Part shown: in pieces, positions 6,249 through 13,232 of the stretch
Numbering within the stretch: position 1 is the first letter of the stretch
Layout of the letters: the number at the start of each line of letters is the position of its first letter
Assembly: GCA_009928855.1 (NCBI GenBank)
Contig: SABV01000010.1
Location: forward strand, 1-34,515
Direction: 5' to 3'
DNA length: 34,515 bases
DNA from: Erysipelotrichia bacterium
GTDB taxonomy: Bacteria; Muiribacteriota; Ozemobacteria; Ozemobacterales; Ozemobacteraceae
The notes under the pieces: model-generated
What the model was told of the DNA's origin: nothing
The model's database searches: none
Seen by the model: the letters and a program-made list of their open reading frames with translations, nothing else
Translations under genes and position numbers: made by a program

Positions 6249-9200
6249 TCAAAGTTGCAGCGGAAATTCGTCAGCAAAATTGTGATCAAGTATCTCGCCG
6301 CTGAACCATGGCGGACAGAATTTTGAACTACGCAATCTGACAAAAGCTTCAACAACCTGCGGATCAAACTGACTTCCGGCGCAGCGTACAACTTCTTCGG
6401 TGGCCTCATCAAAAGTAAGAGGTTTTCGATAAGGTCGGCATGATGTAATCGCGTCAAAAGAGTCTGCCACACATATAATTCTTGAGCCAAGCGGTATTTC
6501 TTCATTCGAAAGACTATCCGGGTAGCCTTTTCCGTCGTATCTTTCATGATGGTGCTTGATAATTTCGCAAACACTTTTAAGAAACTCAATTGAATTTAGA
6601 ATGCCGGCACCAATATGCGGGTGCGATTTGATGGTTTCAAACTCATCATCGGTTAATCGCCCCGGCTTGAGCAAAATCTGTTCTGAAATACCTATTTTGC
6701 CTACATCATGGAGCAATGAAGCGTGTCTTATCGTATCGACCTCACTTCTTGGCAAACCCATCTCAAGCGAGATACCAACACTCAGATCAGTAACTCGGCG
6801 TGAATGACCATGGGTATAGCTGTCTTTTGCATCGATCGCAGCCGCGAGTGATCGAATTGTTTCGAGGTATACATTCAGAAGGTTGTGATAAAGTCTGGCA
6901 TTTTCAATGGCAATTGAGGCCTGCGACGCCAGAGTCTCGAGTAAATCGAGGTTTTCGATAGCAAACGGCCCTTTTTTGCTCAGAACTCTTTCGCAATTTA
7001 TAACACCGACCAGATTATCCTTGTTAATAAGCGGAGCCGAAATCAGCGTCAGATCGGTTTTTCTGGCAATACCAGGCAGGTCTTTGTAATCAGGACTTTT
7101 GCCGGTATTATCAACTTTGATCGGTTTGCGCAGTTGGGCAGCCCGCCCCGCAACCCCTTCACCGAGCTTCAATCTTACCTCAGTCACGCCCATATCATCG
7201 AAACCTCTGTAAACTTCAACATAAAGCTCACCGGTGACGTCATCAAACAACATGAGTGTAGCACGGTCAGAATCAGTGATTCGCGTAGTCATGTCGATAA
7301 AATAATTCAAAACGGAGTCCAGATCGAGCGAAGAGTTGACAGCCTTGCCGAGTTCTTGAATAAGGCTCAGTTCAGCAACCTGCATGTCAGTTCGTTCGTG
7401 CAGGCTTGCGTTGGCGATTGCCTGCGAAATCTGACCCGAAATGCCCAGCAACAGATTGAGATCATCCTCAAAAAATGCGTCGCCACTGCGTTTGTTATTT
7501 ACGTTCAAGACCCCAAGAAGAGAGCTGTTATGCAAAATAGGCACAGACAGCACAGAACGGGTCTTGTAATCAAGTCTGCCCTGGTGATTGGCAAACCTCG
7601 CATCTTTTGACACATCTCTGAGAAGCACTGGCTGTAAGTTTTGCGCGACCCAGCCGGCAATGCCGTCACCAATCTTAACCTGGATCTGCCCAACCATATT
7701 GCTTGGCAGACCAATCGCCGCATCAAGAGATAAAGACTCTGTAAGCGGGTCATAGGCCATCAACGAACAGTTTTCGACCTCCATGACTTCCTGGACCTGT
7801 TGCAGAATCGTGTCGAACAATTTCGAAATATTGAGAGTCTTCGACACCGAAGAACCAACCTTGTAAAGAGTCGAAAGATAGTCAAGTTTGCGACGCGAAT
7901 CATTAAAAAGCCTTTCATTTTCGAAATGAGAGGTAATGATACGCCCGACAGTATTGAGAAGATGCTGATCAGACTCCGAAATAGTCTCAGATTCGTCGCG
8001 ATGATAAACCCCAAGAGCCCCGACAAGTCGGTCATCCGGGGTTAAAAGAGGCACAATCAGCAGAGATTTGGCAAACTGATCAAGAAAATTGTTGCGTGCA
8101 ATAGTATTGTCGCGGTGAACATCCTGAATAAGCAGCGCCTTGCGATGCACGCTAACCCAGCCATGGTAGCCCTTTCCCGGAGTTATCGTCAGCGTATCGA
8201 GCTCTTCTGGCAATCCTGATGAAGCACGCATGCAAAGTTCTTCTCGATCACTGTTATAAAGCATCAGCGAAGCAGCGTTACAATCGAGAGCGTCGCAAAG
8301 CTCTTTGAGAATCAAACAATAACCATCGCGATCTAGAGAACGCACCGAAAGGGCTTCTGAGATGGAGAAAAGCCGCGAAAGCTCTTTAAGCTTCTGATTA
8401 GAATTGGCCAGAAGTCGGGCATTTTCAAGAACTTTTGTCACCATTGAGGCAAGAGTGTTCAATGAAAGCACGTCATCTTTGGAAAAAGCGTTGATTTCTG
8501 ATGAATCTACCGATACGACACCGATAAGCTTCTCGCCAACGAGCAACGGAACAGCAAGTTCAGAGTATATAGATTCTGGAGTTTCTATATAACGCGGCTC
8601 AAGAAGCACGTTTGGCACGTTGAGAGTCTCTTTATTGCGGGCAACCCAGCCGGTAATACCCTGACCAAATGGCACTCTGATCTTTTTAACTTCCTGCGGG
8701 TATTTTCCGCGGGCAACGGCCACTTCGAGATAGCTCTTATTTTCTTTGCGCAGAAGCAAAGCACCACAGGTAGCTCCGGTAATTTCGATGGCAATATCCA
8801 TTAGAAACTCAAGAAGATTCTGGAACTCGAGCGTCGAATTCATGATATTCGAAGCTTCTTCGAGCACAGAAAGAATCTTTTCTTTGCGAGCCAGCGCCTC
8901 TTTTTCTGCAGCGATGTCTATCATCTGCATAAAAAAACTTTCGATAGATTCAACCGCAGCGTCAAGCTGTTCATCAGTCATAACAGGCAACTGAGCATCA
9001 CCGTGGTAATTTGCCACAGCCTGCAAAAAAGGGCCAAGAAGCACGGCGCCATAAAAATAGCCGCGGTAATTAAGCTTTATCAGCCTTACTAGAGAACCAT
9101 CCTGGCGCTCAATGATTTCGGATGCGGGATAATCAACAAATTCAGAAGCATCCGGCATACCATCGAAGAGCTCTTCGATTCTGCCTATAACCACTTCGCC

Positions 9201-9311
9201 GCGTTCATTTAACGGTACAACGTTCAGACCGGTGAGTCGACGAAACCGGCTAAGAAAACTTTTAAGGTTCTCGCGGTCACAAACTTCTTCCAGATAGATC
9301 TTCCTGACCAT
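6249..9311 (-). CDS. Multi-GAF sensor with HD-GYP phosphodiesterase output
   Basis: A 1020-residue cytoplasmic signalling protein. N-terminal ~100 residues (LKSFLSRFRRLTGLNVVPLN, then GYFYGAVLLGPF) resemble a PocR-type ligand-binding domain, a tentative match. Four GAF domains follow at about 155-300, 310-465, 480-640 and 655-800, each with the GxGxxGWVA or GEGVAGRAA segment. The C-terminal HD-GYP domain (about 815-1005) is complete: HGHSRRV, HDVGKIG, HPHIGAG, HHHERYDGKGYP and ADSFDAITSCRPYR, so it should hydrolyse c-di-GMP. No membrane segment. ATG at 9311 has only a weak Shine-Dalgarno sequence (AGGGAAA, about 12 bases upstream). A TATAAC at about 9330 could be its -10 box. Ligands of the GAF domains are unknown. 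Confidence 0.93.
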   Translation of the reverse strand: MVRKIYLEEVCDRENLKSFLSRFRRLTGLNVVPLNERGEVVIGRIEELFDGMPDASEFVDYPASEIIERQDGSLVRLIKLNYRGYFYGAVLLGPFLQAVANYHGDAQLPVMTDEQLDAAVESIESFFMQMIDIAAEKEALARKEKILSVLEEASNIMNSTLEFQNLLEFLMDIAIEITGATCGALLLRKENKSYLEVAVARGKYPQEVKKIRVPFGQGITGWVARNKETLNVPNVLLEPRYIETPESIYSELAVPLLVGEKLIGVVSVDSSEINAFSKDDVLSLNTLASMVTKVLENARLLANSNQKLKELSRLFSISEALSVRSLDRDGYCLILKELCDALDCNAASLMLYNSDREELCMRASSGLPEELDTLTITPGKGYHGWVSVHRKALLIQDVHRDNTIARNNFLDQFAKSLLIVPLLTPDDRLVGALGVYHRDESETISESDQHLLNTVGRIITSHFENERLFNDSRRKLDYLSTLYKVGSSVSKTLNISKLFDTILQQVQEVMEVENCSLMAYDPLTESLSLDAAIGLPSNMVGQIQVKIGDGIAGWVAQNLQPVLLRDVSKDARFANHQGRLDYKTRSVLSVPILHNSSLLGVLNVNNKRSGDAFFEDDLNLLLGISGQISQAIANASLHERTDMQVAELSLIQELGKAVNSSLDLDSVLNYFIDMTTRITDSDRATLMLFDDVTGELYVEVYRGFDDMGVTEVRLKLGEGVAGRAAQLRKPIKVDNTGKSPDYKDLPGIARKTDLTLISAPLINKDNLVGVINCERVLSKKGPFAIENLDLLETLASQASIAIENARLYHNLLNVYLETIRSLAAAIDAKDSYTHGHSRRVTDLSVGISLEMGLPRSEVDTIRHASLLHDVGKIGISEQILLKPGRLTDDEFETIKSHPHIGAGILNSIEFLKSVCEIIKHHHERYDGKGYPDSLSNEEIPLGSRIICVADSFDAITSCRPYRKPLTFDEATEEVVRCAGSQFDPQVVEAFVRLRSSKFCPPWFSGEILDHNFADEFPLQL

Positions 9312-9391
9312 TTTGCTATAAGTTTCCCTGTTATACTACATACTGTGGCTCTAAATAACGGTCACAGAAACACCTGCAGATCTCCAGCTTT

Positions 9392-9820
9392 TCAGCTGAT
9401 TTCAATTACAGAATTCATTCCTTCGTATTTGTTTTTAACCGCATTGCCTGATTTTGGATCGATAACCCAGTCAGTATCGTTAACAACGAACTGGTATTCA
9501 TGCTTACCAGATTTGAGCTTAAGAGTGCATTTCCAGATGCCGTTTTCCTTTTTCATGGGAGTTGCATCTTTGTTCCAGTCGTTAAAAGTTCCAACCAGCG
9601 AAACTTTTACAGCGTCTGCATCTTCAAATTCAAACTCAACTTCGCTTTCAGAGTCAGATGTAGTTCCGGCGGGTTTGGCTTCGGCGTCGTCATCAGACTT
9701 TTTAGCTTCGTCTTCCCACATTTCTTCTTCTTCAAAACTGTGTTCGCGACCGATAATATAACCAATACCAAACACACTGGCCATAACAAACAGTTTCCAG
9801 ACAAACCGTAAAAATCTCAT
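9392..9820 (-). CDS. Membrane-anchored protein with CBM48/glycogen-binding-like domain
   Basis: 142 residues. One N-terminal membrane helix (about 5-23, VWKLFVMASVFGIGYIIG), then a very acidic, low-complexity linker (about 25-70, runs of E, D and S), then a single early-set beta domain: VSLVGTFNDWNKDATPM, WKCTLKLKSGKHEYQFVV and WVIDPKSG. This is the pattern of CBM48/AMPK-beta glycogen-binding domains and of isoamylase N-terminal domains, but with no enzyme attached. Orientation predicts the domain outside the cytoplasm unless the helix inserts the other way. The ATG is 12 bases past the helicase stop; its AGGAGG overlaps that TAG stop, so the two genes are probably co-translated. Role unknown; carbohydrate binding is an inference from the fold. 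Confidence 0.8.
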   Translation of the reverse strand: MRFLRFVWKLFVMASVFGIGYIIGREHSFEEEEMWEDEAKKSDDDAEAKPAGTTSDSESEVEFEFEDADAVKVSLVGTFNDWNKDATPMKKENGIWKCTLKLKSGKHEYQFVVNDTDWVIDPKSGNAVKNKYEGMNSVIEIS

Positions 9821-9832
9821 TTTATTGACCTC

Positions 9833-12094
9833 CTAAGCTTTTTCGCTATTTATAACCTGAAGTGAAGCATACTGCAAGAGTAATGTTTTAAGGCCCTGTT
9901 TTTCAAAGCGCACAGTCACACGAAAATCAGCAAGAGAGCCACCGCTGGTTTCTTCGACCTGACCATGCCCAAAAATTTTATGAAGCACTTTTGCTCCCGG
10001 TATTAAATTTATCATGGTTGCGTTCGCAGTGCTACCATAATCATCAGATGTGCCAGCAGTTTTTCGTTCGGCAGACCATTTAACCTGCGGATTAAAAGTA
10101 AACGCACCTGACTTTGGCCGGCTGCTTACCGCCCCTGGAATCGCATTTGCCGACGGGCGACTTCGGCCTTTTTCGGCAGATTCGCTGCGCCCGTGATAAA
10201 GATGAGACGGCACTTCTGTGACAAAGCGTGAAACAGGGTTGTTTCCCCAGGTTCCGAACATCATGCGTCTGTTTGCCGCAGTGAGGAAAAGGCGTTCGCG
10301 GGCTCTCGTCATGCCAACATAGGCCAGCCGTCGTTCTTCTTCGAGTTCTTCGGGAGCATCCTTCGAAGAATGATGCGGAAAAATACCTTCTTCCATGGCC
10401 ACCATAAAAACCACCGGAAACTCAAGCCCCTTGGCATTATGCAATGTCATCAGATGTACTTTTTGCTGAGTTTCGTCGATATCGTCGGCAGCGGCATGCA
10501 GAGCAGTATTGGCCAGATAATCATGCAGTTTCAAGTCAGAGTTGTCTTCTTCCTGGTATCTGATATCAGAGACAAGCGCTTCAACATTGTTTCGACGGTC
10601 ATCTGCCGTTTCGGGATCGTCATTTTTCAAGTAAGCAAAATATTCAACATCATCTACGATCTTGCGGCAAAGCACAGAAACACGCATTTCCTGAGCAGCT
10701 TCCATAAAATCGAGCATCATTCTGAAAAACTTACCAATCTTCGACTCCGGATTACGGCATCCTTCTTCGGAGATCGCATCCCAGAGAGAGCGACCGCCAT
10801 CCGCAAGGAGCTTGTCAATAGTGGATTGACCAATACCACGTCTTGGCGTGTTAATGATTCTTTCGAGCGAGACACCATCTTGCGGGTTATCTATCACCCG
10901 CATATACGCGAGAACATCTTTAACTTCACGACGATCAAAAAATTTAGTGCCACCGGTAATATCATAAGCGATACCCTGACGCTGCAAAGCCTGTTCAATC
11001 GGTCGGCTCAAACTGTTCATTCTAAAAAGCAGGGCAAAATCACCGGGTGCAAAACCATCATTACACAACGAAGTTATTTTGCGAACTATCCATTCGGCTT
11101 CTTCACGGTCATCACCAGCCCTGTTAAAATGAAGCAGTTCGCCGCCCTCTTTGTCTGTCCAGAGTCGTTTCGGGTGTGCGCTTACGTTTCTGGCGATGAC
11201 AGCACCGGCCGCGTTAAGAATCACCTGAGTAGAACGATAGTTCTGTTCGAGTTTAACAATTCTGGCGCCTTTAAAATCATTGGCAAAATCCTGAATATTG
11301 CGGATAGTGGCGCCACGCCAGCTGTAAATAGACTGGTCTTCATCGCCAACGACGCAAAGGTTGCGACTTTTTGAAGAAATCAGAGAAATCAGACAATACT
11401 GAGCGTGATTCGTATCCTGGTATTCATCTACAAGAAAATACTGATACTGGTTTTGCAGCTTATGAAGCAGTTCAGGAGAATCTTTCAACAGATAATAGGT
11501 TTTAAAAATAAGATCGTCAAAATCAACCGCCTGATTCTGCTGCAACTGAGCCTGATAAGCAACATATGCCTTTTGTACTGTCGCTGAAGCGGGTCCTGGC
11601 CCGGCCAGTTTCTGATAATCATCAGGACCGACAAGTTCGTTTTTAGCCTGCGAAATAAAACCAAGCACCGCTTTGGGCGAAAACCTTTTCGGATCGACCT
11701 TCTGGTCTTTGAGAACGTTTTTCATCAATTTTTCACTGTCAGATTCGTCATAAATTGTGAATCCATCAGCGAATCCGGCGTGTTTGTGCCAACGACGCAG
11801 CAACTGGCAGCAAAAAGAATGAAAAGTCGTAAGCGTGACTCTTTCGCCTCCGGCAACAATATCTCTAACGCGCTCGCGCATTTCGCGGGCAGCTTTGTTT
11901 GTAAAAGTGACAGCCAGAATTGAAGACGGATCGACTTCTGATTTCTCGATAAGATAGGCAATGCGCACGGTGAGCATTCTGGTTTTGCCAGAACCTGCGC
12001 CTGCGACCACAAGCAGAGGGCCCGAAGTTATCTTTACGGCTTCACGCTGTCGTTCATTGAGCTGCTGCAAAGTTGTATCTATTGAGTTGAACAA
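9833..12094 (-). CDS. pcrA: UvrD/PcrA-type superfamily 1A DNA helicase
   Basis: 753-residue 3'-5' DNA helicase for repair and replication restart. Motifs in order: Q-motif (LNERQREAV), Walker A AGAGSGKT at about 32-39, Ia (AVTFTNKAAREMRERV), II (DEYQDTN), III (VVGDEDQSIYSWRGA), IV (LEQNYRS), V (VHLMTLHNAKGLEFPVVF) and VI (EERRLAYVGMTRARERL). The C terminus has the Tudor-like module (VLHKIFGHGQVEE) that binds RNA polymerase in PcrA/UvrD. No insertion interrupts any motif. The start is TTG at 12094: no in-frame ATG gives an intact N terminus, and GGGAG lies 9 bases upstream inside the end of the preceding gene. That gene, five bases away, encodes an intein-like protein. Confidence 0.94.
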   Translation of the reverse strand: MFNSIDTTLQQLNERQREAVKITSGPLLVVAGAGSGKTRMLTVRIAYLIEKSEVDPSSILAVTFTNKAAREMRERVRDIVAGGERVTLTTFHSFCCQLLRRWHKHAGFADGFTIYDESDSEKLMKNVLKDQKVDPKRFSPKAVLGFISQAKNELVGPDDYQKLAGPGPASATVQKAYVAYQAQLQQNQAVDFDDLIFKTYYLLKDSPELLHKLQNQYQYFLVDEYQDTNHAQYCLISLISSKSRNLCVVGDEDQSIYSWRGATIRNIQDFANDFKGARIVKLEQNYRSTQVILNAAGAVIARNVSAHPKRLWTDKEGGELLHFNRAGDDREEAEWIVRKITSLCNDGFAPGDFALLFRMNSLSRPIEQALQRQGIAYDITGGTKFFDRREVKDVLAYMRVIDNPQDGVSLERIINTPRRGIGQSTIDKLLADGGRSLWDAISEEGCRNPESKIGKFFRMMLDFMEAAQEMRVSVLCRKIVDDVEYFAYLKNDDPETADDRRNNVEALVSDIRYQEEDNSDLKLHDYLANTALHAAADDIDETQQKVHLMTLHNAKGLEFPVVFMVAMEEGIFPHHSSKDAPEELEEERRLAYVGMTRARERLFLTAANRRMMFGTWGNNPVSRFVTEVPSHLYHGRSESAEKGRSRPSANAIPGAVSSRPKSGAFTFNPQVKWSAERKTAGTSDDYGSTANATMINLIPGAKVLHKIFGHGQVEETSGGSLADFRVTVRFEKQGLKTLLLQYASLQVINSEKA

Positions 12095-12098
12095 GGTT

Positions 12099-13232
12099 TT
12101 AGTCTCCCGACAGTTTGGTAGAAGGGCTATAGCACATAATTACCCACTGCCCTGCGATAAAATTGTGAAGATCATGCACCTGCAGATTATAAAGAGGCCC
12201 TTTATAGTCTTCAAAATCGACCGTAGCAACAGTATCTTCTTCAATCAACCCCTGGCGCAATATAGGCACAAGCATGCCGGGTTTTAGGTGTGAGGCCGGC
12301 AAAATATAAAACGGCGCTTTACGGCTCAGTTGTATTTTTTTCACAATTTCGAGACCATCGAGATGTGAAAGGGTCTTCACAAAAAGTTCGGCTTCTTCAA
12401 GGTCATCACGAGTAATCTCTAAAAACCAGAGACCGTGCTTGCCCTGACGACGCTTAAAATGGCGATGCTCAACACGGTTCGGATCGACCGTTCCTGAAAT
12501 CTGAATTAAATGCGAATACCTGTTAACGGCGCCCTTTTCGCTACCACCAAATATAACAAACTGAATAGCATTGCTACCAGGGTTACTGCTGTTAGAAAGC
12601 CGCATGGTAATATGCGGATGATCGATAAACATGTTGAAGTCGCGTAAAAGCTCATGGGCGCGCGATGGCGTATCAATACTGTTGAATATTTCGCGGGTCA
12701 TATCTTCAGAAAGCTCTGAATCTGGCTGGCGCGCTGAAAAGGGTATATCCGGAAGCCCGTATTTAAAAACCGCATATTTCTGCATAAAGGTTGCATTTGG
12801 CAGGTTTGCCGTCGTATCGATAATCCAGATGCGGTCAACCAGCTCCTGCTGATTAAAAAGATCGTGTCGCAAACTGTTCATCGAAATCAGATCGCGCGTC
12901 AAATCAGCCGAAACTGACACTCTGAAACCCATAGAAGAACGTTCCTGCAAATAAAGCGTATATTGACGCACCATTGGGTTTATGCGACCGAAGCAAAGCT
13001 GGTCGGGAGTGCAACGAAGAACGGCACCACGTGCGGTAACCAGTTTAATCAGTGGAATACGATGATCATAATTCACATAAACATCGCGAACCCTGGTCAA
13101 ACTGATTTCGCCCCACCCGGAAGCCCCGGAAACAGGGTGTTCTTCTCTGATATCGGTTATCGCGACAGACTCGTCTCCGCGTAATATTTTTGCATCAGCA
13201 GGCAGCATCAGCAACCACACCCAGACAGGCAA
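12099..13232 (-). CDS. Free-standing intein-like (Hint) protein, splicing residues lost
   Basis: 377 residues that follow the full plan of an intein. Block A: LPADAKIL (10-17) then VAITDI, where the first-position Cys would fall at Met9. Block B: TPDQLCF (75-81), Gln where the TxxH His is expected. Pre-C region: LPASHLKPGMLVPI (311-324). Blocks F/G: LYNLQVHDLHNFIAG (347-361) then WVIMCYS, with Met366-Cys367 where His-Asn are expected. From memory, the ASHLxPGM and HNFIAG segments and the central part (DRIWIID, KYGLPDIPF) resemble inteins found in UvrD-type helicases. No LAGLIDADG motif was recognised. Start uncertain: TTG 13232 gives this length; ATG 13208 is Met9. It sits directly before pcrA and cannot splice as it stands. 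Could be a relic or a domesticated protein. Confidence 0.72.
   Translation of the reverse strand: MPVWVWLLMLPADAKILRGDESVAITDIREEHPVSGASGWGEISLTRVRDVYVNYDHRIPLIKLVTARGAVLRCTPDQLCFGRINPMVRQYTLYLQERSSMGFRVSVSADLTRDLISMNSLRHDLFNQQELVDRIWIIDTTANLPNATFMQKYAVFKYGLPDIPFSARQPDSELSEDMTREIFNSIDTPSRAHELLRDFNMFIDHPHITMRLSNSSNPGSNAIQFVIFGGSEKGAVNRYSHLIQISGTVDPNRVEHRHFKRRQGKHGLWFLEITRDDLEEAELFVKTLSHLDGLEIVKKIQLSRKAPFYILPASHLKPGMLVPILRQGLIEEDTVATVDFEDYKGPLYNLQVHDLHNFIAGQWVIMCYSPSTKLSGD

Follow-up and report, generated by a model that had tools for sequence, protein, structure and literature searches.

The stretch of DNA analysed here (the window, 34,515 nucleotides), part of a MAG whose named relatives are Riflebacteria, carries an intein-like gene directly before the helicase gene pcrA, which raises the question of where a free-standing intein comes from, and why it has been kept, when the protein beside it is uninterrupted. 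It had been proposed from the letters of the window that this gene is the intein of a UvrD-type helicase, moved out of its host gene with every splicing residue replaced, perhaps to serve as a binding partner or regulator (the original prediction). The limits of the gene, its relatives inside and outside Riflebacteria, the selection acting on it and its likely function were therefore considered in turn.

Limits of the gene and splicing residues

The open reading frame of the predicted 377-residue gene (377 codons, 12099-13232, reverse strand) was confirmed in the window. However, homologue alignment placed the real start at the ATG at 13208, which is Met9 in the numbering of the original prediction, and two homologues have in-frame stop codons directly before this position. 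The gene therefore encodes 369 amino acids (Table 1), and the Met at the Cys1 position of the intein is the initiator and not a substitution within a longer protein. The initiator codon at this place is ATG in most genomes of the window's family and GTG or TTG in some.

Table 1. Features of the intein-derived gene and its surroundings in the window
Feature	Coordinates	Strand	Basis or remark
Free-standing intein-derived gene, 369 aa	12099..13208	−	ATG at intein Cys1 position; TAA stop; homologue alignment
In-frame ORF extension from an upstream TTG; translation improbable	13209..13232	−	Homologues align from M1, some with stops just before
N-terminal Hint half, residues 1-78; Cys1 is the start Met, TxxH is TPDQ	12975..13208	−	
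Central domain 1, residues 79-165; common to phage inteins; weak GIY-YIG-like pattern	12714..12974	−	
Central domain 2, residues 166-295; region of strongest conservation in the window's family	12324..12713	−	
C-terminal Hint half, residues 296-359; ends in HNFIAGQWVIMC versus HNFIVDGFVVHN in active inteins	12132..12323	−	
C-terminal tail, residues 360-369; weakly conserved	12102..12131	−	
GGGAG, likely pcrA ribosome-binding site, within the last codons of the intein-derived gene	12104..12108	−	Inferred from reading the sequence
pcrA, uninterrupted; begins with TTG, 4 nt after the stop of the intein-derived gene	9833..12094	−	
Empty ancestral insertion site in pcrA motif III, GDEDQ/SIYSW; junction 11333/11332	11318..11347	−	
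Small glycogen-binding CBM48/AMPK1_CBM protein, next gene of the conserved block	9392..9820	−	

Compared with active inteins, the window protein has Met for Cys1, CTPDQ for the TxxH motif and Met-Cys for the terminal His-Asn, so that the replacement of every splicing residue was correctly predicted for these three sites in this protein, but it does not extend to all relatives: among 22 members of the window's family (f1), the block B TxxH His is Gln in 14 and kept in eight. Residue 1 is a start Met, Val or Leu throughout this family and Cys in families f4 and f5, and the terminal His-Asn is replaced in 22 of 22 members by Met or Gly followed by Cys, Ala or Ser. No exteins surround the gene, which has its own start and stop beside an uninterrupted pcrA. 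With a start codon for Cys1 and the terminal His-Asn gone, the proteins of the window's family are predicted to be dead for splicing.

Descent from an intein of PcrA/UvrD helicases

Searched as a single sequence, the window protein gave E=0.0035 against Pfam Intein_splicing, which misses the cut-off, 0.099 against TIGR01443 and 1.4e-4 against the Pho RadA intein. A profile built with 17 homologues matched the solved inteins RadA and MJ0781 at 2.7e-10 and 2.4e-9, respectively, and the predicted membership of the intein/Hint families can thus be retained. The f5 relatives pass the Pfam intein cut-off at 2.3e-16, and the window protein aligns over its full length with the f5 inteins inside PcrA (E=7e-44 to 2e-40). 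The gene is an intein by descent, not by function, and on alignment is assigned by descent to the lineage of motif III UvrD/PcrA inteins. Viral contigs searched with the f5 intein yielded no relative, and fold prediction for the window protein and four relatives gave no usable model (pLDDT 31).

Inside PcrA, the embedded form of the element was found at one site. Four f5 Riflebacteria genomes have a full-length homologue within PcrA at VVGDDDQ/C...VHN/SIYSWRGA (a slash marks a junction) which keeps Cys1, TPNH and His-Asn-Ser. Among 342 genomes from outside the phylum, searched with a cut-off of E<=1e-15, one (G123, of another phylum) has a homologue, likewise in PcrA and at that site (HN/SIYSWRGA), and none has the stand-alone form. 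Phage UvrD/Rep helicases (Justusliebigvirus; SPO1 gp34.33) carry inteins of the same lineage at the same junction, GDxxQ/S. In f5, G123 and the phages, those splicing residues open to checking (Cys1, TxxH, HN/S) are intact. The intein-free PcrAs examined have no insert at motif III. Of the two forms, the intein is therefore the widespread one, the stand-alone gene having been seen in Riflebacteria only. The occurrence of the same full-length element at a single site in PcrA/UvrD of f5, G123 and phages agrees with the predicted source, a UvrD-type helicase intein, and the uninterrupted PcrA expected directly after the gene was likewise found, the window's pcrA matching TIGR01073 at E=5e-239. 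Origin from an intein at motif III of PcrA/UvrD, followed by domestication, is well supported.

In two f4 genomes the homologue has the same splicing residues and lies in a very divergent UvrD-like protein. Motif III of these host proteins (L030:3385-6429, L031:2759-5866) reads TTDGEY or TLNGDH, not GDDDQ, and both genomes also have a separate intein-free PcrA; the UvrD-like protein is possibly a degenerate helicase retained with its intein.

Distribution and neighbourhood in Riflebacteria

Of the 40 Riflebacteria genomes examined, 36 have exactly one homologue; in one of them contig ends split the copy into two pieces. Within the window's family, the neighbourhood is assembled in 22 genomes representing 10 genera, and each of these carries a single, intact copy directly before pcrA. 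The locus of another genome of the family (G008) is broken by a contig end, consistent with the pair, and a 64% complete one (G011) is without both the intein-derived gene and pcrA. The distance from the stop of the gene to the start of pcrA ranges from −17 to +18 nt, the two genes overlapping in several genera, and the pair is constant while the genes ahead of it vary (pfkB, glnA, others). Downstream of pcrA, a homologue of the CBM48-like gene is found in 18 of the 22 loci. In the window (6249-9820) the CBM48/AMPK1_CBM protein is followed by a long GAF/HD-GYP protein, a homologue of which is likewise found after pcrA at 18 of the family's 22 loci, an association of glycogen binding with the helicase.

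The stand-alone form also occurs in four other Riflebacteria families (f2, f3, f6, f7), and the embedded form persists in two (f4, f5). The very recent escape considered in the original prediction is contradicted by this spread over four further families besides the window's own, in which at least 10 genera have the gene. The gene order in f3 is mnmA, intein-derived gene, galU, pcrA, as seen in genus g13; in the two genomes of the sister genus g19 the gene has been lost, and mnmA and galU lie next to each other. This clean presence/absence polymorphism (L117:1150-4158, L118:3135-6143, L120:5343-7284) indicates that the gene is not essential everywhere. The stand-alone gene is not adjacent to pcrA in f2, f6 and f7, and since galU intervenes in f3, linkage to pcrA is not phylum-wide. 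The f7 homologues (L033:5193-6380, L034:4995-6209, L035:4549-5763) are distant from pcrA, and upstream of that in L035 lies an apparent ECF sigma factor gene, judged from its translation alone.

Inheritance and selection

Pairwise pN/pS within the window's genus and its sister genus was 0.05-0.28 for the intein-derived gene and 0.10-0.33 for pcrA, and 0.05-0.20 for the stand-alone gene in f3 and f7. Because dS approaches saturation in most pairs, these ratios are given in place of dN/dS, and constraint is for the same reason stronger than they indicate. Within f1, the gene tree and the pcrA tree have 11 of 18 splits in common (random mean 0.27, maximum 3), with a few supported conflicts, chiefly among near relatives. 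The f1 clade has a support of 100/98 in the homologue tree, on which one release and several releases of the stand-alone forms fit about equally well (a single release is not rejected; AU p=0.38). Inheritance is broadly vertical and selection purifying, as for a domesticated gene. Among the 22 family members, 34 of 217 positions are invariant in the two central domains and 4 of 78 in the N-terminal Hint half, a pattern indicating that selection preserves the central region and not the splicing chemistry.

Central domains

Central domain 1 shares with GIY-YIG nucleases a Y...(F/Y)xG hairpin followed by helix-strand-helix in similar register, and hhalign aligned the two in the right register with a probability of 26%, 40 column-shuffled decoys reaching 3.9% or less. 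However, searches of Pfam and PDB profiles gave no significant match to GIY-YIG, and the putative catalytic Glu, whose assignment holds only if the resemblance is right, is Q, L, H or A in 17 of 22 members of the window's family; it is kept in f5 and in three aligned phage inteins. Nuclease activity would appear to have been lost in the window's family. A domain of the same kind (YLM...RVGIT...E...KYGIP) was also observed in the DNA methyltransferase intein of Streptococcus phage Javan575 (L130:1625-3736). Central domain 1 therefore seems to move among inteins whose hosts are unrelated, and it may be a mobile module, for instance an endonuclease domain.

The codons at the old insertion site in pcrA have no extra synonymous conservation and so give no sign of a retained DNA target. 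Synonymous conservation is far stronger in the last pcrA codons (window 9836-9892) than elsewhere in the gene, with a codon identity of up to 0.77 compared with a mean of 0.41; a signal for the gene that follows, or an effect of the alignment end, may be responsible.

Proposed function and alternatives

The reading we favour, with somewhat better than even confidence, is that a former PcrA intein now persists as a separate, splicing-dead gene coupled to pcrA, whose product most likely serves as a PcrA accessory protein binding the helicase and/or DNA. An intein at motif III of PcrA/UvrD would have left its host gene and become a gene of its own, which in the window's family would be co-transcribed with pcrA and translationally coupled to it. 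Co-translation is suggested by the strict adjacency, by stop and start codons that overlap and by a likely ribosome-binding site for pcrA in the last codons of the gene, and a function shared with PcrA by the matched constraint and the broadly congruent trees. The protein could act either through the old contacts with the helicase or through a DNA-binding surface of the central domains; from sequence, a role as PcrA partner or DNA-binding accessory is probable. Physical contact with PcrA, and an effect of such contact, are inferred from genomic linkage. The broader proposal that, across a bacterial phylum, a parasitic PcrA insert was turned into a regulator or subunit dedicated to that helicase and co-translated with it is put forward more tentatively, at somewhat less than even confidence.

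The main rival to a PcrA accessory is a domesticated intein that has kept the DNA binding of its homing-endonuclease region and acts on DNA without contacting PcrA, for instance by regulating its own pcrA operon or as a nuclease in repair. Homing endonucleases are able to repress their own operon, as I-TevI does, and the best-conserved part of the gene is formed by the central domains, at the place expected for the endonuclease, the first of them aligning to GIY-YIG above the decoys. We nevertheless consider this role rather unlikely, given the replacement of the putative catalytic Glu in most family members, the insignificance of the GIY-YIG match in profile searches and the ordinary synonymous variation at the old homing site. 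The loss of this Glu also weighs against an active selfish homing endonuclease that cuts alleles of its neighbour lacking the element, a behaviour for which the intein-like, free-standing WHO elements beside the yeast host gene FBA1 offer a precedent (PMC7282813). The Riflebacteria gene is single-copy and largely vertically inherited, with no clusters or duplicated pcrA ends at the loci examined and no pseudogene copies seen, and such activity is very improbable.

Two further explanations concern the history of the gene. A decaying, functionless remnant could account for the lost splicing residues and the weak single-sequence profile scores; however, the orthologues are not the randomly broken frames that decay would leave, keeping instead their frame and their position before pcrA through 10 genera with pN/pS as low as that of the essential helicase (f3 and f7 likewise), and the selection test led us to reject decay, to which we give almost no credence. 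The reverse direction, in which a free-standing Hint-type gene is ancestral and later became the PcrA intein, draws on the stand-alone forms outnumbering the embedded ones in the phylum and on a tree that the data do not root. It is nonetheless a most doubtful history, as a splicing intein occupies the identical site in phages, G123 and f5, the stand-alone form is absent from the 342 genomes outside the phylum, and that form begins exactly at intein residue 1 without the splicing residues.

Comparison with known systems

Inteins are viewed as selfish elements, and the chief benefit proposed for them is regulated splicing. Among the motif III UvrD/PcrA inteins, that of the Justusliebigvirus UvrD/Rep helicase (MZ501084 bas62_0080) resembles the window gene in full-length homology, both Hint halves, central domain 1 and the helicase site, and that of Bacillus phage SPO1 gp34.33 mainly over the first 170 residues, at the same helicase site. 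Unlike these inteins, the window gene has no host protein, no Cys1 and no His-Asn end, and has its own start and stop codons. Bacterial intein-like (BIL) and pretoxin-Hint domains also place the Hint fold outside classical inteins. They are parts of larger secreted or toxin proteins with active Hint chemistry, whereas the Riflebacteria gene consists entirely of the intein, whose chemistry is lost.

A search of the open-access literature (subscription papers being outside its scope) returned no description of stand-alone inteins in bacteria or of Riflebacteria inteins, and as far as found, a stand-alone domesticated descendant of an intein has been described earlier only for yeast HO. Living intermediates are available in bacteria, namely an intein within PcrA, one within a diverged helicase, and free genes both beside pcrA and elsewhere. 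They make it possible to study how a host gene arises from a splicing parasite, whether it acts on its former host protein, and whether specificity for the helicase site was the reason. If the proposed function is true, a selfish insert has been recruited as partner of the protein that it once interrupted.

The closest published parallel is that of yeast HO and WHO, stand-alone relatives of the VMA1 intein which combine a zinc finger with a LAGLIDADG endonuclease; the WHO genes sit beside FBA1, home into it, form clusters and duplicate the FBA1 end, and HO is domesticated (PMC7282813). The Riflebacteria gene differs in being bacterial and of another intein lineage, with no zinc finger seen, the putative active sites lost, one copy per genome, one pcrA match per locus and no sign of homing. 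Common to both systems is an intein-like protein encoded by a stand-alone gene without exteins, lying beside the host gene in the case of WHO and domesticated in that of HO.
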